This document shows positions 10,204 through 25,683 of a stretch of 32,875 nt of DNA, in pieces. The translations under genes and the position numbers were made by a program. How positions within the stretch are numbered: position 1 is the stretch's first letter; the number at the start of each line of letters is the position of its first letter. The stretch comes from a virus: the IMG/VR virus record IMGVR_UViG_3300031227_000237, positions 1 through 32,875 of that record; one strand, given 5' to 3'. The notes beneath the pieces were generated by a model. The model was not told the DNA's origin, searched no databases, and was given only the letters and a program-made list of their open reading frames with translations.

Positions 10204-10710
10204 ATGAGTAAATCAAAAGTTCCGACAGGCGGAGGAGGCCGCGCATTCGTAGATCTCGTCGCCATCTTGGTGGCGGTCCTGGTGATCGGCCCCATAGTGA
10301 TCGTCTGCACCACGCCCGCCGACGCTCAGATGCTGCCGGTCTCCCTGGCGGTAACGAACCTGCGCGAGCAGGCCACCATCGAGCTGCCCGCCGGCAACTA
10401 CGAGTTCACTGAGGGCGATTCCCTGCTGCTGACCAACTGCGTGGCCTATGCCGGCAGCACAACCAATACGGCCCGCGATAACCTCACGTATGTGGAGGTG
10501 GACGTGACCATCGGCGACACGACCTGGTCGCAGACCTACACCGGCGTCGTGGCCAATGCCACCAACGGGCAATGGTGGTGCCTCATCACTACCGTGCCGA
10601 CCAACCCCTCCACGCACTACCTGGAATACTCGTTCTACAACACGAGCACGACCGTGCGGGTGACCGATACCTGGGACAAGATCAAGACGCGCAGCCCGCT
10701 GCGCAACTAG
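10204..10710 (+). CDS. Exported protein with beta-rich domain, unknown function
   Basis: A 168-residue protein with a clear signal peptide or N-terminal anchor: basic start, then FVDLVAILVAVLVIGPIVIV, then a cleavage-like TPADA-Q site near residue 43. The mature part is rich in Thr, Asn and Tyr and is predicted to be beta-sandwich-like (YEFTEGDSLLLTNCVAYAGS, TYVEVDVTIGDTTWSQTYTG), with two Cys residues that could pair. AAAGGG lies before the ATG at 10204; an ATG at 10168 after AGGA is possible. No family is recognised. It breaks the usual gp26-gp27 order, so it was probably inserted as an extra gene. Confidence 0.6.
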   Translation: MSKSKVPTGGGGRAFVDLVAILVAVLVIGPIVIVCTTPADAQMLPVSLAVTNLREQATIELPAGNYEFTEGDSLLLTNCVAYAGSTTNTARDNLTYVEVDVTIGDTTWSQTYTGVVANATNGQWWCLITTVPTNPSTHYLEYSFYNTSTTVRVTDTWDKIKTRSPLRN

Positions 10711-11278: not shown

Positions 11279-13329
11279 CCTCAGCCATCACACAACTGGA
11301 CCAGCGCTTTCACGAGGCCAACGCCCCGGCGCTGACCGTCCCGGCGATCGCCACGTTCCGCCAGTTCATGGAGGAGCACGCCAAGGTGCGCGTGGGCAGC
11401 GAGTTTGTTCAGTACACCACCGTGGGACGCGAGCCGCTGGCCCTGGTGATCGCCATCATCGACTATGTGCTGGGCAACGACGTCAGCTATGTCCCGGATG
11501 ATGTTCGCATGGAGCTGTTCGGCACGCTCGATTACGGCAAGATCATCACCGATGCTCACATTTATGTCTGCGGCGGCGCGCAGTTCGGCAAAACGATCCT
11601 GTCGCTGCACCTCAAGCAATACCTCTCGGCCATCCGCTGGATGCACTCCTATTACGTCCTGCCGGATAACGACCTGGTCAGCGCCATCATAGACGGCAAG
11701 GAGCGCCCCGAGGTCCTGGACCAGATCCCCTGGCTGAACCAGATGATCACCATCGGCAAAGAGGTCAACGAGTCCGGCAAGACCGTCAACCGCAAGGGCG
11801 CAATGCTTTACACCGACGGCAAGCACTCTGCCATGAGCTACATGCGCGGAATGAACAAGATCCCGACATCCATCTCCGCGGACTGCGTAATCCAGGATGA
11901 AAGCGACGACATCGATCCAGAGAAAAGCAAGTTCCTGCCGGGCCGCATGACAGCCTCCGATCTTCGCCTGTTCGTGGGGATCGGCACGCAGCGCTATCAC
12001 GGCGCCGGCCAGAACAAGCTCCTGGAAGATGGCTCCAAGCTGCTGGGCGATCTAATCTGCCTGGCCTGCGGCACCAAGATGAATCCGGAGGAGACCTGGC
12101 CCCAGATCGCACGCATGGCCATGGACGGAAAGCCATCGACCACGGATCCGCAGCTATCCTATGAGGGCAACTTCAAACGCGGTACCGAGACCATTGCAGA
12201 CTTCGACCACGACGCAGTCTACTACATGGCCTGCACGCATTGCGGCGACGAGCTCGATCGCGAGGCAATCAAATATACCTCGCAGAAGCCCCTGCGTATC
12301 AAGGCGCGGCGTTGGTCTATCCGCGTAAGCCAGATGTGCTGCAGCGGCCTCTCGCTCAAGATGATCATTGCCGACTGGTGCCAGAACGCGGTGCGCGATC
12401 CGGACGCCATGGTGGCCTTTGCCTGCGATCGCCTCGCCATCCCCAAGAGCGCGGCCCAGCAGGTTGAGCCGTCGCACCTGGCCAAAGCGCGCAGCCTGGA
12501 AGAGTTCACACTTTCCCTCACGCCCAGCCCCAAGACCCTCCGCTATGGCGGCATGGATACCGGCGACCGCTGCTGGTTCATCTCGAGGGAGATCCATAGC
12601 GACGCCGCCAAACGCATAAGCTGGGCCGAGCAACTCAGCCCGGAGCGCTGCCGCGAGCGCATCCCGGCGCTGTTCAACACGCTGGAGCTATCCTGCCTGT
12701 TTATCGATATCGGCGCAGAGCGTTCTCTCACCCGCGACTTGTGCCTGGTCATCAACGGCCTGCAGGACTGGGACGCACCGCAGATCGACAATCCGGAGAA
12801 TGCATACATCCACATGCCTGGCGGCGTTGCCTGGGACGGCCCCAACAACAAGTGGCACGGCATCAAGTGCGCCGCCGTGGAATTCAGCCGCAAGCCGGGC
12901 AGCGGCATTGTGCATAAGCTGGGAATCAACCCGGACGGCAACCGCTACTATCCAATCATCCAATGCAACCGCGACGAAGTCATCGGCCAGGCCGTGCGCG
13001 AGCTGCTCACCGCCGAGGATGGCGTTATTGAACTCATCGATGGGGCTCTGCGTACAGAGCCCGTGTTGCGGCTGCCGCAGATGGGAAGCGGGGCACAAGC
13101 TATTGCGCAGAGCATAGACGCCCATTTCCTGGCCGGTAGCTGCACAGAGAAAGATGCCAAAGGCGCGATCCACTATGTTGGAAAGAAGGAGAACCATCTT
13201 CTCCTGGCGGCGGCCTATGCGCGCCTGGCCGAGACGATCGGCGGCACGCTCAAGCCCCGCAAGTTCGAGTACTCCTCCGTCGCGGCGCCGTCCGGCACCG
13301 TGGCCAAAGAAAGGAGCCTGGTATTCTGA
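11275..13329 (+). CDS. Phage terminase large subunit
   Basis: A 684-residue packaging motor. The ATPase domain has Walker A GGAQFGKT at residues 100-107 and Walker B CVIQDE at 204-209. A zinc-ribbon insert has CLAC at 262-265 and CTHC at 320-323. This insert, the 'RRWSIRVSQMCCSGLSLKMI' segment and the overall length resemble the lambda GpA class (Phage_GpA). The C-terminal nuclease domain starts near 'YGGMDTGDR' and includes 'CLFIDIGAE'. The gene starts at the ATG that overlaps the small terminase stop. A reading frame that begins 480 bases upstream is only an extension through that gene. The portal gene follows with a one-base overlap. Confidence 0.92.
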   Translation: MTSAITQLDQRFHEANAPALTVPAIATFRQFMEEHAKVRVGSEFVQYTTVGREPLALVIAIIDYVLGNDVSYVPDDVRMELFGTLDYGKIITDAHIYVCGGAQFGKTILSLHLKQYLSAIRWMHSYYVLPDNDLVSAIIDGKERPEVLDQIPWLNQMITIGKEVNESGKTVNRKGAMLYTDGKHSAMSYMRGMNKIPTSISADCVIQDESDDIDPEKSKFLPGRMTASDLRLFVGIGTQRYHGAGQNKLLEDGSKLLGDLICLACGTKMNPEETWPQIARMAMDGKPSTTDPQLSYEGNFKRGTETIADFDHDAVYYMACTHCGDELDREAIKYTSQKPLRIKARRWSIRVSQMCCSGLSLKMIIADWCQNAVRDPDAMVAFACDRLAIPKSAAQQVEPSHLAKARSLEEFTLSLTPSPKTLRYGGMDTGDRCWFISREIHSDAAKRISWAEQLSPERCRERIPALFNTLELSCLFIDIGAERSLTRDLCLVINGLQDWDAPQIDNPENAYIHMPGGVAWDGPNNKWHGIKCAAVEFSRKPGSGIVHKLGINPDGNRYYPIIQCNRDEVIGQAVRELLTAEDGVIELIDGALRTEPVLRLPQMGSGAQAIAQSIDAHFLAGSCTEKDAKGAIHYVGKKENHLLLAAAYARLAETIGGTLKPRKFEYSSVAAPSGTVAKERSLVF

Positions 13330-14936
13330 TGGCAACCTTGCTCGACCAGTTCGGCCGCCCGCTGAGCACGACGCCCAACGTCGCTGATTCCATTATGCAG
13401 GCAGAGCGCATTGCCAGGGAGATTCGCGGGCACTTCAACCCCATCAAGAACCTCACGCCCGTTAAGCTGCGCCAACAGCACGACCAGTTCGACGCCGGCT
13501 TCATCGGCCCACTGGCCCGCGTGATCGCCACCATCAAAGAGGTGGACGACGTCGTGCCCAACGTAGCGGCCAAGCGCGAGGGCGGCCCGGCCACGCGTGG
13601 CTACGAGATCGTGGCCAAGGACAAGAGCCCGGAAGCGCAGCGCCACAAGGAGACCCTGGAGTACTTCTATGACAATCTCTCCTGCAGGAGCGCGGTCGAC
13701 CTCGACCACGTCGGCGGCGTGGAGCTGCTCTTCCGTCAGCAGATGGATGCAGTCAGCAGCCGCTATGCCGTGCATGAGATGATCTGGCAATCCTCCACGC
13801 GCGGCATCACTGCCGAGCTGCGCTTTGCGCCTCTTTGGTTCTTCGAGCGGACGCTCGGCCGGCTGCGCTTCCTGGCCGATCCCAGCGCGCAGTATGGCCA
13901 GGACCTCGAGCCGGGGCGCTGGCTGGTAACCGTCTCGCCGGCCTTCCTGGGCAAAGCCATCTCCATCGCCCGGCTATACAAGAGCACCCCGCTCAAGGAC
14001 TGGCTCATCTACTGCGGCCGGCACGGCATGCCGGGCATTGCAGGCAAGACCAACGCCAGCCAAGGCTCCACCGAGTGGGACGCCATGGCGACGGCCGTGC
14101 AGTCGTTCGCGGCCGAGTTCTCCGCGGTCATGAGCAACACAGACGCCATCGAATCCATCGACCTAACCGCCAAAGGAAACCTGCCCTATCCCCCGCTCGT
14201 CGAGCGCATGGACCGCATGATGGCCGCCCTCTACCGCGGCGCGGATCTTTCCACGATGTCGGCGGGCGGTGGCGAGGGAACCGGCGCGAGCCTGCAGGGA
14301 GACGAGGCCGATATCCTCGAGAGCACCGATGCCTCCATGATCTCCGGCTCCCTGCACAGGCAGATCGATCGCCTGGTGATTTACTACCGCCACGGCACGC
14401 TCGAGCCGCTGGCCGGCATCCAGGTGAACACCTCCACCAAGGATACGGTTGAGCAGGACCTCAAAGTGGATAAGCAGCTCCACGAGATGAGATTCCCCCT
14501 GTCCATCCAGGATCTATCCCGCCGCTACGGCCGCACTGTCCCGGATCCGGACGAAGACCTGATCCCGACCCCCGGCTCCGCGGCCCCCGTACTGCCGGCC
14601 GATCCCGGCTTGCCGGCCGCCAACGAGCTGAGCGCGGCCAACCAGGTGGGATCGGTGCGGGCCGCCCGGTTGCGCAAGGCCTCTATGGATGCCTATGCGA
14701 AGGCCCAGGCGCGCGAGTTTGAGCCGATCGCCCAGCGACTGCAGGCGGCCATCGAGGCAGACGACAGCCTGGAGGCCATGGCCGCCATCAACGAGCTGCG
14801 CCGCGACCTGCCAGGCATGCTCACGGAAATGGTCCAGGACAGCCACACAACCGGCGCTTTGGAGGAGGCCCTGGTTGCCTCGCTCATCAATGGATACGCA
14901 GAGGCGGCCGTGCGCCGCCAGGGAGAGGCATCGTGA
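13329..14936 (+). CDS. DUF935 portal protein (Mu gp29-like)
   Basis: A 535-residue protein that forms the dodecameric DNA gate of the head. It follows the DUF935 pattern: an N-terminal 'LTPVKLRQQHDQFDAGFIGP', 'EMIWQSSTRGI', 'FAPLWFFERTLGRLRFL', then 'DWLIYCGRHGMPGIAGKTNA', and a 'LSTMSAGGGEGTGASLQGDE' core loop. The C-terminal 110 residues are Ala-rich helices with 'PAANELSAANQ' at 429-439. That repeats a motif also found in the scaffold and capsid proteins. The start overlaps the terminase stop (TGATG) and the end overlaps the next gene (GTGA). Confidence 0.92.
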   Translation: MATLLDQFGRPLSTTPNVADSIMQAERIAREIRGHFNPIKNLTPVKLRQQHDQFDAGFIGPLARVIATIKEVDDVVPNVAAKREGGPATRGYEIVAKDKSPEAQRHKETLEYFYDNLSCRSAVDLDHVGGVELLFRQQMDAVSSRYAVHEMIWQSSTRGITAELRFAPLWFFERTLGRLRFLADPSAQYGQDLEPGRWLVTVSPAFLGKAISIARLYKSTPLKDWLIYCGRHGMPGIAGKTNASQGSTEWDAMATAVQSFAAEFSAVMSNTDAIESIDLTAKGNLPYPPLVERMDRMMAALYRGADLSTMSAGGGEGTGASLQGDEADILESTDASMISGSLHRQIDRLVIYYRHGTLEPLAGIQVNTSTKDTVEQDLKVDKQLHEMRFPLSIQDLSRRYGRTVPDPDEDLIPTPGSAAPVLPADPGLPAANELSAANQVGSVRAARLRKASMDAYAKAQAREFEPIAQRLQAAIEADDSLEAMAAINELRRDLPGMLTEMVQDSHTTGALEEALVASLINGYAEAAVRRQGEAS

Positions 14937-16938: not shown

Positions 16939-17400
16939 ATGCTGAAGCTCATGCGCATCCTGTGGCCGCAACTGCGCGGCACAATCCAGGCAGCCAACAT
17001 CGCCGAGGGCACCCACGAGGGAGCCGTCACGAAGTTGAGTGATGCTGCCATCACGACCCGCAATCTGCTGGTCAAGGTCGGAACGGATTCCGACCACATC
17101 GCTGTCTGCGGAGCGAGCGATCGTCCGCGTGGCGTATGCAACGACGAAGCCGGCGCGGCTGAGGAGAACGTAAACGTCAACCTGCTGGGTCGCAATACGC
17201 AGACCGACCTCATGGTCGCAAGCGAAGCGATCGCAGACGATGTGGACGTCTACACCGCCGCCAGCGGCAAGATCCAGAACGAGCCGGCGGTGGCCGGAAC
17301 GTACTACCTTGTGGGGCACTCCCTGGGAAGTGCTGCAGCCGTCGGCGACGAGCTGGAAGTGGATTCCTGCCATCCGATCGCATTCGTAGTCACCGAATAG
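16939..17400 (+). CDS. Capsid decoration protein, DUF2190-like
   Basis: A 153-residue protein likely to sit on the outside of the head and stabilise it. The sequence follows the small beta-barrel 'capsid cement' pattern: 'CGASDRPRGVCNDEAGAAEE', 'VNVNLLGR', 'IADDVDVYTAASGKIQNEPA', 'GTYYLVGHSLGSAAAVGDEL'. It resembles DUF2190 and the lambda gpD-type proteins that lie between the protease and the major capsid genes. The N-terminus carries 'TIQAANIAEG' (residues 15-24), so a short N-terminal piece may be removed. GAAGGGGAAAGAAC precedes the ATG. Confidence 0.75.
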   Translation: MLKLMRILWPQLRGTIQAANIAEGTHEGAVTKLSDAAITTRNLLVKVGTDSDHIAVCGASDRPRGVCNDEAGAAEENVNVNLLGRNTQTDLMVASEAIADDVDVYTAASGKIQNEPAVAGTYYLVGHSLGSAAAVGDELEVDSCHPIAFVVTE

Positions 17401-17468: not shown

Positions 17469-18428
17469 ATGGATATCTTTCGACTCCAGGAGGATCGAGG
17501 CACGAACCTGGTAAAGGACGTGCTCTATGCCGCCAATGAGGCGCGCTTCACCTCCACCAACTACAGCGAGCCGCTCACGCAGTACATCGTGGGCTGGCAG
17601 GACCCCGCCAACCTCGCAGAGCTCCTTGAGTTCTTCGCGCCCGAGGTCCCCAACACGCCGCGCCGGTTCGAGTTCAAGAAGGGTACAAACGCTGAGTACT
17701 TCTTGACCGAGACCGACGACGTCCGCGCCATCGGCTCTGCGTTCAAGCGCGTTGAGCAGAAGGGCACGACCGTCACCGATCGCACCTACAACAAGGGGCT
17801 TACCACCCGGGTGGATCACGACGACGTCCTCGGCGACGACTGGCGCGAGCGCAAGGTGGCCTGGCTCAAGGCCCGGCTCCTCCGTAACGAGATCATCCGT
17901 GTGGTCGCACTCTTGGGCACTGCCGCCACCAACCTGGCCAAGGTGTGGGATAGCACCAAGGATCCGGATGCAGACATGCGGGATTCGCTGCGGCTGGCCA
18001 CCAGTTCCTCGGGGATCCGCCCCAATCGCATCGCGATCGGGGAAGGCGCCTGGGACCTGCGCACGGATGCGTACCATGCCGGTGCACATGCGGGCGTATA
18101 CGTCCAGGGCGACAAGACTCCGGAGGAAGTGGGGCGCAAGCTTGGCGTGGAGAGCTGCCGCGTTGTGAGTGCCCGCTACCAGTCCAGTGCCAGCGCCAAG
18201 AGCAAGGTGCTCGGCGATACGGTCCTGGAGTTCCTGGCAGAGGCAGTGCTCGACAAGGACGATCCGTCCAACATCAAGCGCTTCATCTCGCCGACCGAAC
18301 AGGGGCAGATGTGGGGTGTCTACATCGAGGAGCACCCCAAGTTCACAGACATCTCGGTGGAGCACTACTCCAACACGGTAATCACCAGCACGCTGGGGAT
18401 CCGTAAGCTCACCATCAGCGCAACCTAA
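17469..18428 (+). CDS. Major capsid protein
   Basis: A 319-residue protein directly after the decoration gene and before the neck genes, the usual place for the HK97-fold head subunit. Characteristic segments are 'VDHDDVLGDDWRERKVAWLK' (a long spine-helix-like region), 'AIGEGAWDLRTDAYHAG' and a C-terminal 'ISVEHYSNTVITSTLGIRKL'. The latter two recall the Mu-like and related 'major capsid protein' families. Residues 18-26 read VLYAANEAR, the same motif found in the scaffold; cleavage there would remove about 23 residues. AAGAGG precedes the ATG. A strong hairpin lies after the stop. Confidence 0.85.
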   Translation: MDIFRLQEDRGTNLVKDVLYAANEARFTSTNYSEPLTQYIVGWQDPANLAELLEFFAPEVPNTPRRFEFKKGTNAEYFLTETDDVRAIGSAFKRVEQKGTTVTDRTYNKGLTTRVDHDDVLGDDWRERKVAWLKARLLRNEIIRVVALLGTAATNLAKVWDSTKDPDADMRDSLRLATSSSGIRPNRIAIGEGAWDLRTDAYHAGAHAGVYVQGDKTPEEVGRKLGVESCRVVSARYQSSASAKSKVLGDTVLEFLAEAVLDKDDPSNIKRFISPTEQGQMWGVYIEEHPKFTDISVEHYSNTVITSTLGIRKLTISAT

Positions 18429-18443
18429 AGACAGGAGCATCCT

Positions 18444-18465
18444 GGGGGCCGCCTGGCCGGCCCCC
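18444..18465 (+). terminator. GC-rich hairpin after the major capsid gene
   Basis: GGGGGCCG-CCTGGC-CGGCCCCC forms a perfect 8-bp stem 15 bases after the capsid stop. No T run follows, so it is more likely to be an attenuator, or a block that protects the capsid mRNA, than a full terminator. Strong hairpins after the capsid gene are common in phages. Confidence 0.6.
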
Positions 18466-18538
18466 GGGACCTCACGCCTAGCCACAGACAGAGCAACGTA
18501 GAGAGAACCAACAACAGTAACCAAGCAGGAGACAGACC

Positions 18539-19069
18539 ATGCGGAAGAAATTCACAACTATTGAGATGCTCGTCGTGATCGCACTGATTGCGCTCATGGC
18601 GGCACTGGTCCCGCTGGCAGCCCGGGGAGGCCCGCAGTTCGTGGCAAACCTCACCAACATCTTGAGCCGCCTGCAGGCCTATACCAACTCCAACGACACG
18701 GCGCTGTCCGCGGTGGTCAGCAACCTGGGCAGCGTCAGCAACGACGTAGACACCGCGGAAGCAACGCTCGCCTCCGCGGTCAGCAACCTGGGCAGCGTCA
18801 GCAACGACGTAGACACCGCGGAAGCAACGCTCGCCTCCTCGGTCAGTAGCCTGGCCAGCGTCAGCAACGACGTAGACACCGCGGAAGCAACGCTCGCCTC
18901 CGCGGTCAGTAGCCTGGCCAGCGTCAGCAACGACGTGGACACGGTGGAGGCGATCCTGGCCTCTGGCCTGGATGGGTCGAACTACTTCCTCAGCGCCACC
19001 GCTGTCACTGGGGTTGTGCAACGCGTCGACGGGGTCGTGACCAATATCGACCTGGACGTCAGTCAGTAA
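18539..19069 (+). CDS. Prepilin-like protein with tandem coiled-coil repeats
   Basis: A 176-residue protein that starts MRKKFTTIEMLVVIALIALM. This matches the type IV prepilin/pseudopilin leader: basic residues, then a 'FT.IEMLVVIA' hydrophobic helix with the conserved Glu five residues after the cut point. The residue before Phe is Lys rather than Gly, as in some Lentisphaerae/Verrucomicrobia-type leaders. Residues 60-143 are four 21-residue repeats (S-N-D-V-D-T-A-E-A pattern), which would form a rod-like coiled coil. The remainder is short. The gene stands alone between two hairpins in the head-tail operon. Its role is unknown: membrane anchoring, assembly with host pili or a receptor decoy are possible. 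Confidence 0.7.
   Translation: MRKKFTTIEMLVVIALIALMAALVPLAARGGPQFVANLTNILSRLQAYTNSNDTALSAVVSNLGSVSNDVDTAEATLASAVSNLGSVSNDVDTAEATLASSVSSLASVSNDVDTAEATLASAVSSLASVSNDVDTVEAILASGLDGSNYFLSATAVTGVVQRVDGVVTNIDLDVSQ
18716..18967 (+). repeat. Four tandem 63-bp repeats in the prepilin-like gene
   Basis: Units lie at 18716-18778, 18779-18841, 18842-18904 and 18905-18967, each 21 codons. Units 1 and 2 are nearly identical. Units 3 and 4 differ from them at a few codons (Asn to Ser, Gly to Ala). The last unit has drifted most. Recent duplication in whole codons is likely, and the copy number may vary between strains. Confidence 0.9.
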
Positions 19070-19111: not shown

Positions 19112-19143
19112 GCCCGGCGGGTGGGACCGCCTGCCCGCCGGGC
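19112..19143 (+). terminator. GC-rich hairpin after the prepilin-like gene
   Basis: GCCCGGCGGG (19112-19121) and CCCGCCGGGC (19134-19143) form a perfect 10-bp stem with a 12-base loop. No T run follows. With the hairpin at 18444 it brackets the prepilin-like gene. It would separate this gene's transcript level from its neighbours or mark the edge of an inserted cassette. Confidence 0.6.
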
Positions 19144-19161: not shown

Positions 19162-19611
19162 ATGGCATGGGAAGCAATAACCGAGGCGCACCTGCTCACG
19201 AAGATCTCCGGTGCGGAGCTGGAAGCGCTGCGCGAGGCCGCCCTGGCGTCCGCTCAGGTTGACCCGGTGGCCCCATCGATTGTGCACGTCACCGGTGAAG
19301 TGCGCGGCTATGTGGCGGCACACAAGCCCAATCTGCCTCTGCCCACCTCGACCACCACCATTCCCGAACGGTTAATGGGCCATGCCGTCATCATGACGGT
19401 CACCGAGATCATCGTCCGCGTGCCGGGCTATGACCTCGACGAAGACCGGCAGCGCCAGCTCAAGCGCGCCTACCAGGTAATGGACGATGTCGCCAAAGGA
19501 GATTTCTCGATCGAAGACCCGTCGACCGGCCTCGATCCCGGCGGCGGTGCCATGGAAGTGGTCAACAGTGTCACGCGTCACGCAAGCAGAGAGAACCTGG
19601 ACGGACTCTAA
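19162..19611 (+). CDS. DUF1320-like head-tail connector (Mu gp36-like)
   Basis: A 149-residue protein. The pattern 'V.GEVRGYVAAHKPNLPLP' followed by 'IPERLMGHAVIMTVTEIIVR', then 'RQRQLKRAYQVMDDVAKGDF' fits DUF1320, whose members link the portal to the tail in Mu-like phages: 'G.V.GY.......LP.P..L', a helical pair, then 'Y..A...L..I..G'. It follows the capsid and prepilin-like genes, where Mu has gp36. GAAGGAACAGCAC precedes the ATG. The C-terminal 40 residues are Gly-rich and less conserved-looking. Confidence 0.75.
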   Translation: MAWEAITEAHLLTKISGAELEALREAALASAQVDPVAPSIVHVTGEVRGYVAAHKPNLPLPTSTTTIPERLMGHAVIMTVTEIIVRVPGYDLDEDRQRQLKRAYQVMDDVAKGDFSIEDPSTGLDPGGGAMEVVNSVTRHASRENLDGL

Positions 19612-22094: not shown

Positions 22095-22765
22095 GCACAC
22101 TCAGCCGCAAACGCATTCGTCTGCTTGCCGACCAATCCACCCGCACCTCGGACAAGATAAGCGACGTTCTCACCAGCTCCACGCCAGAGCTGTGGCGCGG
22201 CAACGACGTCCAGTTCGAGATCGGCCTGGCCATCAACGAGGTCATCCGCGACGACATCAGCAACCTGGCCTCCGTCTCCCTCACGCTCCGGCGCGGATCC
22301 GCCGCTGGCGCTGAGCTGGTCACCAAGTCTGTTGCAGCCGCGCAGCTCACGGATATCAGCCAGGCCCAATGGACCGCCGGCACCCACCAGCATGCGCTCG
22401 TCGTGCTCACGCGGGAAGAGACCGCCTGGACCCTCACCGGCAGCAGCGAGAACCTGTGGCTGGTCGTTTCACAGGCCACCAACGACGCTCCCGGCCGCGA
22501 CCTTACCATCCAGCACACCATCCTCAAGTTCGTGGAAGACGGCACCGGTACCGGCGACTACGTCACCAGCAACCCGGACCAGTACTACACCAAGAGCGAG
22601 ACCGACGCCCGGTACCTGCAGAAGCATGAAGACCAGGCGTGGGCGCAGTGGCTGAACGGCCGCTGGTACCACTACATCCAGACCACGGACCTCTGGTACC
22701 CGGAAGTGGCCCTCATCAAAGACGGCATCCCCATTATCACCCTCGGAACAGGAGTATCCCTATGA
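22091..22765 (+). CDS. Fibre-like protein with YTKSETDARYLQ motif
   Basis: A 224-residue protein. The N-terminal 130 residues are beta-rich ('DVQFEIGLAINEVIRDDISN'). Residues 165-178, YYTKSETDARYLQK, match the 'YTK.E.D.RY' motif often found in trimeric tail-fibre shafts next to the receptor-binding part. It is followed by an aromatic C-terminus ('WAQWLNGRWYHYIQTTDLWY'). It is translationally coupled to the gene on each side (ATGA), and the next product is a large adhesin, so the pair may form one fibre complex. Confidence 0.65.
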   Translation: MSTLSRKRIRLLADQSTRTSDKISDVLTSSTPELWRGNDVQFEIGLAINEVIRDDISNLASVSLTLRRGSAAGAELVTKSVAAAQLTDISQAQWTAGTHQHALVVLTREETAWTLTGSSENLWLVVSQATNDAPGRDLTIQHTILKFVEDGTGTGDYVTSNPDQYYTKSETDARYLQKHEDQAWAQWLNGRWYHYIQTTDLWYPEVALIKDGIPIITLGTGVSL

Positions 22766-25140
22766 CCCGCAGAATCGTCCTGCCCTCAATCGTCCTGTTA
22801 ATCGCATCGCACCTGTTGTGCACGAGCGCTGCAGCAGCCCTGCAGATCGATAATCTTGCCCCCACCGGCACCACACGCACCACAACCTGGCTGCGCGGCG
22901 ACCTGGTCTCCACCAACCAGATCACCAACGCGCTCACCGTCTTCTACGGCACCAGCAACGGCGCAACGAACACCGCGTCATGGGCCAGCTCAAACGTCTA
23001 TGGCAACGTCACGACGACCGGCAACGTGCAAGTGCAGATCAGCTCACTCACGGCCGGGCAGCTCTACTACTCGCGCTGGTACGCCATCGACATCTCCAAC
23101 ACCGTGGATTGGGCCAACTCCACCACAAGCTGGTGGACCACTGCCGGCGCGCCCACCAGCTCGCCTATGGCGGCGCTCTATTCTCCCGTCATGGTCGACA
23201 CCAACCTGCTCATCGTGGCCCCCAGCAACGGCCCTGCCTTCCGGCTCACCAACGACCTGCAGAGCGCCAGCGGAGCCACCTCAAGCAACGCCGCCCTGCA
23301 GGCCGGCATCGATACCAACACCGCCAACCTGGCCGCCCACATCATCACCTGGGGCAACACCAACACCGCCCTGCAGGCCGCGATCGCCCTGCGCGTACTG
23401 ACCGCAGACTGGAACAACACCAACACCGCCCTGCAGGCCGCGATCGACCTGCGCGTACCGTTCGCGGATCCCGTCTACACGGCAGTCTGGACCAATGCCG
23501 TACTCACCCTCTCGGACACGAACGTGATTGCGACGTTCGGCCGCGACCTCTACATCACGATCGATACCAACAACTGGAACACCCCAGACCTGGCCCTGCA
23601 GGCGGGCATCACGGCCAACGCTGCCTACACCAACCTGGCCGCGACCGCCTGGCGGACGGACGGATCTACTGGCCCGGCGACGGCCGACTGGAGCATGGGC
23701 GGCAACTCCATCACCGACATAGGGACCAATTCTATGGAGTTCTCCGACGGCCTCGGCATCGGTACCGATGGAATCGGCTCAAATATCGTAGTAACGACCG
23801 CCGGCGGAACGATCAAGACGAACGCATTCAAAAGCGAAGTCACGGCGGTACAGTCGCAGGTCACCGCCAACGACACCGATATCGCGGGGAACACCTCCGC
23901 GATCCTCCGCAACGAGCTGGTAGACATGGAGCAGGGCCTGCGGCTCGCAACGCTCTCGGAGCTGTATGGCATGCTCTATAGCTACGGGTCATGGGACGCC
24001 TACAGCTCCACGAACTACGTCAACGGGACTGCCAGCTCCAACCACAACTATGACGCAGACGGCGACTATTACGCATCATCATACGCCGCGATCAACCTCA
24101 CCAACCAGATAGCGCAGTACACGCTGAACGACGACGCGGCGAACACCACGGTAGTCGAGGACGGCGGGACACACACCGGCACCCTCGTCGGAGGCGACAA
24201 CACAGCGGACATCACCACGTCAGGGAAGATCAGCACGGCGCTCCTGTTCGACGGCAGCGCAGATTATGTGACCATTGCCGACAACAACGCGCTCAGCTTT
24301 GGCGACGGGACAAACGACTCGCCGTTCTCGGTTTCGTTATGGTGCAAGACCACCTACGGAACAGGCTCATCGAGAACCATGTTTGGGAAATATAATTCTG
24401 ATTCCGTTTCCGAATGGAATTGCGGACATCTCGGCTCCACGGCCATGCTGCGGCTCATGGACAACAGCACCCTATCAATAGAGGGAATTGGCGGAACAGG
24501 AGGCGGCACGGCCATCATAAACGATAACGTATGGCATCACTTGGTCTTCACATACGACGGACGCGGGGGAGGAAGCGCGAGCGCCGGCATGGCGATATGG
24601 GTGGACGGCGGACTGATGACCACAGCGAGCAGCGGCTCGACCGGGTCTTATGTCGCGATGGAGAACAACGCCTCGACCTGCAAGTTGGCGATGCGCCACG
24701 TTGCGTGGCCGGGGTCACTGGATGACGTTCGCCTGTTCGCGCATGTACTCACAGCAAACGAGATCGCCACGCTTTACAATATCGGCAGCGGCACGGAGAC
24801 AACGAACGGCGTGACCGGCGGCAACATGATTCTCCAATCCACGGAGAACGACCAGCTCACCCCCCCCACCGAATACCGCGCGGCGGTCATCGCCAAAACG
24901 ACCGACGGCAGCCTCACCAATCTCCACACCTATGTCAGCAACGACGGCGGGGCAACGATGGACGAGTGCACCCTGACGCTACAGGGCTGGTGGGATGAAT
25001 CGGCAGGCACATACCTCTATACCGGCGCGACGAATTTCACGTCCAGCACGGCCACAGAGACGAACATCCTCTATAGGCACGTAACGACTAATCTTGCCAA
25101 TGGAATCCAGATCCACGGAACGGCAATCCTCACAGACTGA
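22762..25140 (+). CDS. Large secreted LamG adhesin or tail spike
   Basis: A 792-residue protein with an apparent signal peptide (RRIVLPSIVLLIASHLLCTS, then SAAAA-LQ). Residues about 30-130 look like a fibronectin/Ig-type beta domain. Then come Asn/Thr/Ala-rich repeats with LQAAI (period 20), and a LamG/concanavalin-like domain at about 448-677, marked by 'ALLFDGSADYVTIADNNALS', 'FSVSLWCKTTY', 'WHHLVFTYDGRGG' and 'GSLDDVRLFAHVLTANEIAT'. LamG domains bind sugars. A signal peptide is unexpected on a virion fibre, so it may be exported to the cell surface instead. The ATG overlaps the previous stop. Confidence 0.72.
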   Translation: MTRRIVLPSIVLLIASHLLCTSAAAALQIDNLAPTGTTRTTTWLRGDLVSTNQITNALTVFYGTSNGATNTASWASSNVYGNVTTTGNVQVQISSLTAGQLYYSRWYAIDISNTVDWANSTTSWWTTAGAPTSSPMAALYSPVMVDTNLLIVAPSNGPAFRLTNDLQSASGATSSNAALQAGIDTNTANLAAHIITWGNTNTALQAAIALRVLTADWNNTNTALQAAIDLRVPFADPVYTAVWTNAVLTLSDTNVIATFGRDLYITIDTNNWNTPDLALQAGITANAAYTNLAATAWRTDGSTGPATADWSMGGNSITDIGTNSMEFSDGLGIGTDGIGSNIVVTTAGGTIKTNAFKSEVTAVQSQVTANDTDIAGNTSAILRNELVDMEQGLRLATLSELYGMLYSYGSWDAYSSTNYVNGTASSNHNYDADGDYYASSYAAINLTNQIAQYTLNDDAANTTVVEDGGTHTGTLVGGDNTADITTSGKISTALLFDGSADYVTIADNNALSFGDGTNDSPFSVSLWCKTTYGTGSSRTMFGKYNSDSVSEWNCGHLGSTAMLRLMDNSTLSIEGIGGTGGGTAIINDNVWHHLVFTYDGRGGGSASAGMAIWVDGGLMTTASSGSTGSYVAMENNASTCKLAMRHVAWPGSLDDVRLFAHVLTANEIATLYNIGSGTETTNGVTGGNMILQSTENDQLTPPTEYRAAVIAKTTDGSLTNLHTYVSNDGGATMDECTLTLQGWWDESAGTYLYTGATNFTSSTATETNILYRHVTTNLANGIQIHGTAILTD
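23341..23460 (+). repeat. Two 60-bp repeats in the adhesin gene
   Basis: The blocks 23341-23400 and 23401-23460 line up without gaps and share most of their last 48 bases; each encodes a 20-residue unit with NTNTALQAAI. Weaker copies (LQAGI) lie on both sides. The units probably build the shaft between the N-terminal domain and the LamG head. Confidence 0.8.
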
Positions 25141-25153
25141 CGAAAGGGGCACC

Positions 25154-25480
25154 ATGAAGACACTGACACTCGTACTGGCTGTACTGCTGACCGGTACTGC
25201 TCACGCCGGATCGGCCATGCATTCCCCGAGCGTGGTCGAGAAGATCGCCACAATCGAGCAAGCGGCCGACCCGGACTATCTGACGCTCGATCAACTCCTG
25301 GCCGAGTGGGCCTCCGCGAACAGCGACACCAAGAAATGGCAGGTGTTCGAGAACTTCCTGAAGGCCGAGGCGGCCAAGGAGAAGGTGAAGAAGGCCGCAA
25401 AAGAGAAGGTGAAGAAGGCCGCAAAAGAGAAGGTGAAGAAGGCCGCAAAAGACAAAGCCGACAAAGAAAAGGACAAGTAG
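25154..25480 (+). CDS. Small secreted protein with Lys-rich tail
   Basis: A 108-residue protein with a signal peptide (MKTLTLVLAVLLTGTAHAGS; cleavage likely after AHA). A helical middle (VVEKIATIEQAADPDYLTLD, LLAEWASANSDTKKWQVFE) and a Lys-rich helix made of perfect 8-residue repeats follow. GAAAGGGGCACC precedes the ATG. The protein would sit in the periplasm or outside the cell. With the lipoprotein gene that follows it might form a spanin-like or envelope-acting pair, but it lacks the usual retained membrane anchor. Confidence 0.6.
   Translation: MKTLTLVLAVLLTGTAHAGSAMHSPSVVEKIATIEQAADPDYLTLDQLLAEWASANSDTKKWQVFENFLKAEAAKEKVKKAAKEKVKKAAKEKVKKAAKDKADKEKDK
25379..25450 (+). repeat. Three perfect 24-bp repeats coding for Lys-rich units
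   Basis: Copies lie at 25379-25402, 25403-25426 and 25427-25450 with no mismatch between them, each encoding EKVKKAAK. A degenerate fourth copy follows. Perfect identity means very recent expansion or gene conversion. Confidence 0.9.
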
Positions 25481-25515: not shown

Positions 25516-25683
25516 ATGAGAGCAGTGAAAGCAGTGGCAGCAGTAATGATGGTCGGAGCACTCCTGGTCGTAGCGGGGTGCGCCGGCACAGGCAGTCTGG
25601 ATCTGGGCGACCTCGGCGACTTCGACTCCGGCGAGCTGCCCGTAACCGACTCGCTGCCGTCGAACGTCAGCACGAATAAGTAG
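25516..25683 (+). CDS. Small lipoprotein
   Basis: A 55-residue protein. Residues 1-21 (KAVAAVMMVGALLVVAGC) form a lipoprotein signal with the lipobox VAGC. The mature part is about 35 residues, acidic and low in complexity (SLDLGDLGDFDSGELPVTDS). AGGGAAGT precedes the ATG. Phage lipoproteins of this size are usually outer-membrane spanins (Rz1 type) or superinfection-exclusion proteins. This one lacks the Pro-rich linker typical of Rz1, so the role is open. It follows the Lys-rich secreted protein by 35 bases. Confidence 0.6.
   Translation: MRAVKAVAAVMMVGALLVVAGCAGTGSLDLGDLGDFDSGELPVTDSLPSNVSTNK

Follow-up and report, generated by a model that had tools for sequence, protein, structure and literature searches.

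Why would a gene whose product begins like a type IV prepilin lie between the capsid and gp36 genes of a Mu-like phage? The window, by which we mean the whole stretch of 32,875 nucleotides analysed here (positions 1 to 32,875 of IMG/VR virus record IMGVR_UViG_3300031227_000237; the window features located below are on the plus strand), contains such a gene at 18539..19069, which we refer to as the slot gene. Its product, a protein of 176 amino acids, consists of a prepilin-like leader, a heptad rod and a short C-terminal part. We estimate a probability of roughly one in two that this protein is a coiled-coil fibre exported to or across the inner membrane, with a leader used for export or anchoring only, and that it is probably a part of the virion surface.

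The slot gene is an open reading frame with an ATG well placed behind an AGGAG ribosome site. On one side is the gene for the major capsid protein (17469..18428; phrog_1005 major head protein, E 3.6e-5), and on the other is that for a gp36-type head-tail adaptor (19162..19611; PF07030, E 6.6e-8; phrog_195). A preliminary description of this DNA had placed the gene between a major capsid gene and a gp36-like gene and had considered the location unusual; the phrog_1005 and PF07030 matches confirm the placement, and the location is indeed unusual. The head operon is Mu-like and also contains a Mu-type portal (13329..14936; PF06074, E 1e-43), a Mu-like protease, and a cement-like capsid protein with a basic amphipathic N-terminus (16939..17400; PF09956, E 0.0047).

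Most of the slot protein is a rod. Residues 38-143 form a clean heptad pattern in which 87% of the a and d positions are hydrophobic, versus 27% elsewhere. Residues 61-144 (18719..18970) consist of four tandem repeats of 21 residues, or three heptads, each, just as first described. The DNA identity between successive units is 98%, 94% and 79%, and the 98% identity of neighbouring units points to recent duplication. A short C-terminal part follows (residues 145-176; 18971..19066). A single-sequence AlphaFold2 model shows three helices, spanning residues 7-29, 31-144 (without a break) and 153-169 (short); there are no strands in this model, and the beta-sheet head of a pilin is absent from it. 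Profile searches of known fibre families with the window protein gave weak coiled-coil matches only, and no relatives of the protein were found in IMG/VR with patterns of its own or among GenBank phages.

The first 29 residues (MRKKFTTIEMLVVIALIALMAALVPLAAR; 18539..18625) comprise the prepilin-like leader and a transmembrane helix, with Lys at -1, Phe at +1 and Glu at +5. In the leader, MRKKFTTIEMLVVIALIALM, the n-region is basic as in a prepilin and about 20 apolar residues come after it, and the protein satisfies a prepilin leader rule as MRKK-FTTIEMLVVIALIALM. None of 189,400 shuffled N-termini matched this rule, and only two of the 4735 ORFs from all loci did, both of them in the slot behind the capsid gene. 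The resemblance to prepilins thus exceeds chance. The preliminary description had called this a type IV prepilin leader and had proposed a search for the N_methyl domain. The prepilin-like character of the leader stands; a curated pilin-domain match does not. PF07963 (N_methyl) gave 11.7 bits with the whole protein and 14.0 with the leader alone, under the Pfam cut-off of 21.2, and TIGR02532 gave 11.4 and 13.2 bits, respectively, under a cut-off of 16.3. The GspH model TIGR01708 scored better (26.9 bits, E 4e-6) and was still under its cut-off. The Verru_Chthon cassette protein D (TIGR02596), a prepilin-like family of Verrucomicrobiota, reached 20.1 bits with the leader alone, under a cut-off of 70; the window leader matches the first 23 positions of this family, and there is no match of the window protein past the leader. 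The main difference from known leaders is at -1, where Gly (or Ala or Ser) is absent from the window leader and Lys is found instead, and the low N_methyl and TIGR02532 scores fit this difference. The leader is therefore pilin-like but atypical.

A profile of the capsid protein identified 42 prophage loci in GTDB genomes, all from Verrucomicrobiota (the record of locus L037 is titled uncultured bacterium). Most are from Opitutales, and others are from Spartobacteria, Akkermansiaceae and one Kiritimatiellae record. The same profile matched at least 80 contigs in IMG/VR and nothing among GenBank phages, and a terminase query gave no match. The phage family thus defined appears to be Mu-like and specific to Verrucomicrobiota.

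In most members of the family the capsid and gp36 genes adjoin. In 36 loci, 28 of them distinct, the two genes are separated by a gap of 250 bases or more, and this post-capsid slot is a cargo site. In the related prophages of Cerasicoccus (L020, L021 and L057) we identified no slot gene. The preliminary description had suggested that related prophages be checked for a gene at this place, and such genes are present: by a simple rule, 20 of the 28 distinct inserts begin with an N-terminal export leader, mostly a Sec signal peptide. The same rule applied to the capsid and gp36 ORFs picked out 11 of 238, nearly all low-scoring. Some inserts can be related to known virion proteins. The slot protein of L063 matches the tail fibre family phrog_892 (E 1e-11), that of L099 matches the virion structural family phrog_16122 (E 1.8e-5), and the model of the L116 group is a beta-sandwich (pLDDT 76) weakly resembling birnavirus capsid proteins, carbohydrate-binding modules and phage spikes. 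Most slot inserts seem to be fibre-like or beta-sandwich-like, with export leaders that appear interchangeable.

The second ORF with a prepilin leader (L066:4857-5273) provides the clearest example of such an exchange. Its product, MRKSGFTLTELLTVACVLLILGTSFVRA|QGGADYGRG..., has a prepilin leader and then a signal-peptidase-like site. The slot protein of L037, MKKHLLAFLMIVCAASISQA|AGGADYGRG..., has a mature part that is 58% identical to that of L066 and is preceded by an ordinary Sec signal peptide. The motif GGADYGRGxETDPVA is also found behind the signal peptides of proteins from L012 and L015, and neither a motif scan nor an L066/L037 profile revealed members beyond the slot loci already known. 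The window protein and the L066 protein are weakly similar (31% identity over 101 amino acids, leader included; E 2e-4 when only the two are compared). The interchange of prepilin and Sec leaders in the L066/L037 pair favours a role of the leader in export or anchoring over a role as a pilin.

Membrane leaders are also found on other virion-surface genes of the family. Large fibre-like genes with signal peptides occur in 15 loci; relative to the capsid gene, they lie at roughly +1.5 to +6.5 kb. The gene directly upstream of that for the capsid encodes the cement protein, and 53 of 108 distinct cement proteins have a transmembrane-like helix at the N-terminus. Of these 53, 46 have more Lys and Arg residues after the helix than before it, which predicts that the body of the protein would be on the cytoplasmic side. 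As controls we used Rhodovulum P1, Pelagibaca P1 and FP_Mushu, three Mu-like phages that infect other hosts and have this gene order; no such leaders were found on their cement, slot or fibre genes. Fibre-like proteins with Sec or lipoprotein signal peptides include L093:8846-12154, L090:12961-15912, L065:13008-16724, L016:13532-16840, L018:14011-16194 and, in the window, a LamG-domain protein (22762..25140; PF13385, E 6.7e-16) with a ribosome site directly before the ATG of its Sec signal peptide. Cement proteins with transmembrane helices include L117:6670-7314, L102:7166-7807, L028:1478-1966 and those of about 50 other loci; the window counterpart is the cement-like protein at 16939..17400. 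Signal-like hydrophobic N-termini are also present on some major capsid proteins (L124:7752, L056:9815, L109:7836 and L115:215).

Based on these observations, we favour a role of the slot protein as an exported fibre. The prepilin-like leader would bring the coiled-coil fibre, possibly a trimer, to the host inner membrane for insertion or translocation, and would serve as nothing other than an export and anchor signal. The basic N-terminal residues predict an N-terminus inside the cell and a rod outside, in the periplasm; the membrane-anchored rod put forward in the preliminary description is a fair reading of the leader and the heptads. After a membrane-bound stage, the product would most likely become a component of the virion surface, as a head fibre or a decoration protein. 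The usual way of joining a head in the cytoplasm is closed to an exported protein, and a role in the virion would therefore need an assembly step that is membrane-bound or takes place after lysis. The position of the slot between the capsid and gp36 genes inside the head-tail operon is consistent with a virion-surface fibre, as are the direct matches of the L063 and L099 proteins to fibre and virion families, although the window protein itself has no such match. The leaders on fibres and on about half of the cement proteins, absent from the control phages, point the same way. In addition, a G+C-rich hairpin lies directly after the major capsid gene (18440..18469), and the slot gene is trailed by one that resembles it, a 14-bp perfect G+C hairpin in the interval before gp36 (19112..19143; z = -3.9 for the stretch folded).

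The slot protein could instead be an accessory protein displayed in the envelope, a "moron" whose rod is anchored in the inner membrane and acts at the host envelope, for example by blocking superinfection or aiding adhesion, and that at no stage forms part of the virion. Exclusion of superinfecting phages by envelope proteins of phage origin is well known. This explanation fits the data almost as well as a virion-surface fibre, and we regard it as a real if less probable alternative. The slot gene is accessory and variable and occurs in only part of the family, and its product starts with a signal or anchor with N-terminal positive charge, as do many others in the slot (in 13 of 18, Lys and Arg are more numerous before the helix). 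The gene is also bracketed by hairpins, and a second hairpin follows the insert in the window and in L012, L063, L111, L112, L116, L117 and L124. However, nearly all loci examined have the post-capsid hairpin, whether or not they contain an insert. Neither hairpin around the slot gene has a T-run, and the upstream one is common to phages that have no slot gene. We considered the hairpins as borders of a moron cassette and dropped this idea because the post-capsid hairpin exists without a cargo gene. No sigma-70-like promoter site of the slot gene's own was found, the head operon encloses the slot, comparable slot proteins are fibre-like, and the clear fibre and cement genes of the same phages also have membrane leaders.

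The distinction between a virion-surface fibre and an envelope protein matters for the whole family. Products that belong to the virion would mean that these phages assemble or mature in contact with a membrane. Products that do not would mean that the head operon contains a set of genes for envelope display. Either way, automatic annotation would label such proteins as pilins or as secreted proteins of the host. To us a stolen pilin seems a poorer description of the pattern than a broader, so far unreported tendency to direct virus-surface proteins to the cell membrane. We speculate, tentatively and with some doubt, that in this Verrucomicrobiota-specific Mu-like lineage the virion surface is constructed on, or by passage through, the host membrane: N-terminal helices would hold the cement on the cytoplasmic side of the inner membrane, Sec or prepilin-type leaders would export the head and tail fibres, and the envelope would take part in assembly or release. 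Involvement of the envelope would then be of a kind that is undescribed for tailed phages. We found no precedent in the literature for phage prepilins, virion proteins with signal peptides or membrane-anchored cement in a search that took in few subscription papers. Chronic phage release from Lentisphaerae is only suggestive as a setting for envelope-linked assembly, since the release described concerns filamentous phages (PMC11361711).

It is improbable that the hydrophobic N-termini are head-assembly propeptides, that is, scaffold-like tags or membrane-tethering helices that are removed by the prohead protease and are not export signals. The charges flanking the cement helices, with their predicted cytoplasmic body, would suit such propeptides, and weak hydrophobic N-termini occur on some capsid proteins too. 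In contrast, the N-termini of the slot and fibre proteins have AxA sites and the usual features of signal peptides, the charge balance of the slot proteins is mostly opposite to that of the cement proteins, and the swapping of a prepilin leader with a Sec peptide points to a membrane export route.

Could the slot protein be a true minor pilin or pseudopilin? It had been suggested that the host prepilin peptidase could process the protein, which would then join host pili or a secretion system, here taken as the pseudopilus of type II secretion. The machinery may be available: among hosts of related prophages, all ten genomes analysed for it have exactly one prepilin peptidase (Peptidase_A24) and between 10 and 99 N_methyl matches. 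The Phe at +1, the Glu at +5 and the sub-threshold GspH score are also what a pilin might have. Furthermore, Lys at -1 is a native leader type in part of the Verrucomicrobiota phylum, given that the leader pattern KFTxxE is present in 90 of 289 genomes of the phylum, with up to 85 in one genome, and that a reversed control pattern had almost no matches in the same survey. The idea that Lys at -1 makes the leader non-pilin was at first backed by the ten host genomes and was then qualified by this survey of 289. The capsid profile had no match in 44 genomes of the Lys(-1) type, and the host of the window could have either type of leader. One consequence of the survey is that pilin-like proteins of Verrucomicrobiota, where the Lys(-1) type is KFTLIELLV, will be counted too low by curated GFxxxE models. 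Nevertheless, we consider that the slot protein is very unlikely to join host pili or a secretion system. Credible Lys(-1) pilin leaders were found in none of the 42 host genomes that carry related prophages, where the few hits look like chance; ten of these genomes together contain over a hundred hits with Gly at -1. The missing Gly, the N_methyl score below cut-off, the single-sequence model with no pilin head and the exchange of the leader for a Sec peptide in the L037/L066 pair all argue against a pilin, and neither a prepilin peptidase nor any other pilus gene was seen in the window. Least credible of all is a functionless capture, in which recombination happened to join a host leader to a phage coiled-coil gene: hosts have tens of prepilin leaders and the rod repeats seem recently duplicated, but two prepilin-led genes in one slot among 4735 ORFs, together with leaders on 20 of 28 inserts, are far from random.

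The slot protein can be compared with several known systems. It shares with type IV pilins and type II pseudopilins (PF07963, TIGR02532 and TIGR01708) a basic n-region, the residues at +1 and +5 and a long apolar helix; it differs from them in the residue at -1, in its sub-cut-off scores, in having a heptad rod in place of the beta-sheet head, and in being encoded in a phage head operon. With phage tail and head fibres and decoration proteins (phrog_892, phrog_16122 and PF09956 cement) it shares a position in the virion operon and coiled-coil repeats, whereas N-terminal export leaders are missing from the fibres and decoration proteins of the control phages. The virion proteins of tailed phages are taken to be cytoplasmic, and the window family contrasts with this in having export or membrane leaders on proteins expected at the virion surface, in phages of a poorly known phylum. 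The cultured verrucophage P8625 is likewise a double-stranded DNA tailed phage of a Verrucomicrobiota host, with a genome of about 33 kb, and in contrast to the window family, signal peptides were reported in none of its proteins (PMC4642752). In work on the Hankyphage, the phage variable proteins lacked signal peptides, which was taken as support for their phage origin (PMC6199706).

Besides the slot gene, four genes of the window start with export or anchor sequences. One is the LamG-domain gene at 22762. Another (10204..10710) encodes a protein with an N-terminal export or anchor segment that has relatives with signal peptides in other loci: L099:9666-10124, which is in the slot, and L012:10572-11045 and L015:10412-10867, which are after gp36. 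The gene for this secreted-looking family thus precedes the terminase in some phages and in others lies in the slot or follows gp36, and the differing positions suggest that it is a mobile cargo gene. The remaining two genes encode a signal-peptide protein with KEKVKKA repeats and a ribosome site (25154..25480) and a small lipoprotein with the lipobox VAGC (25516..25683). This pair might be spanin-like lysis genes.
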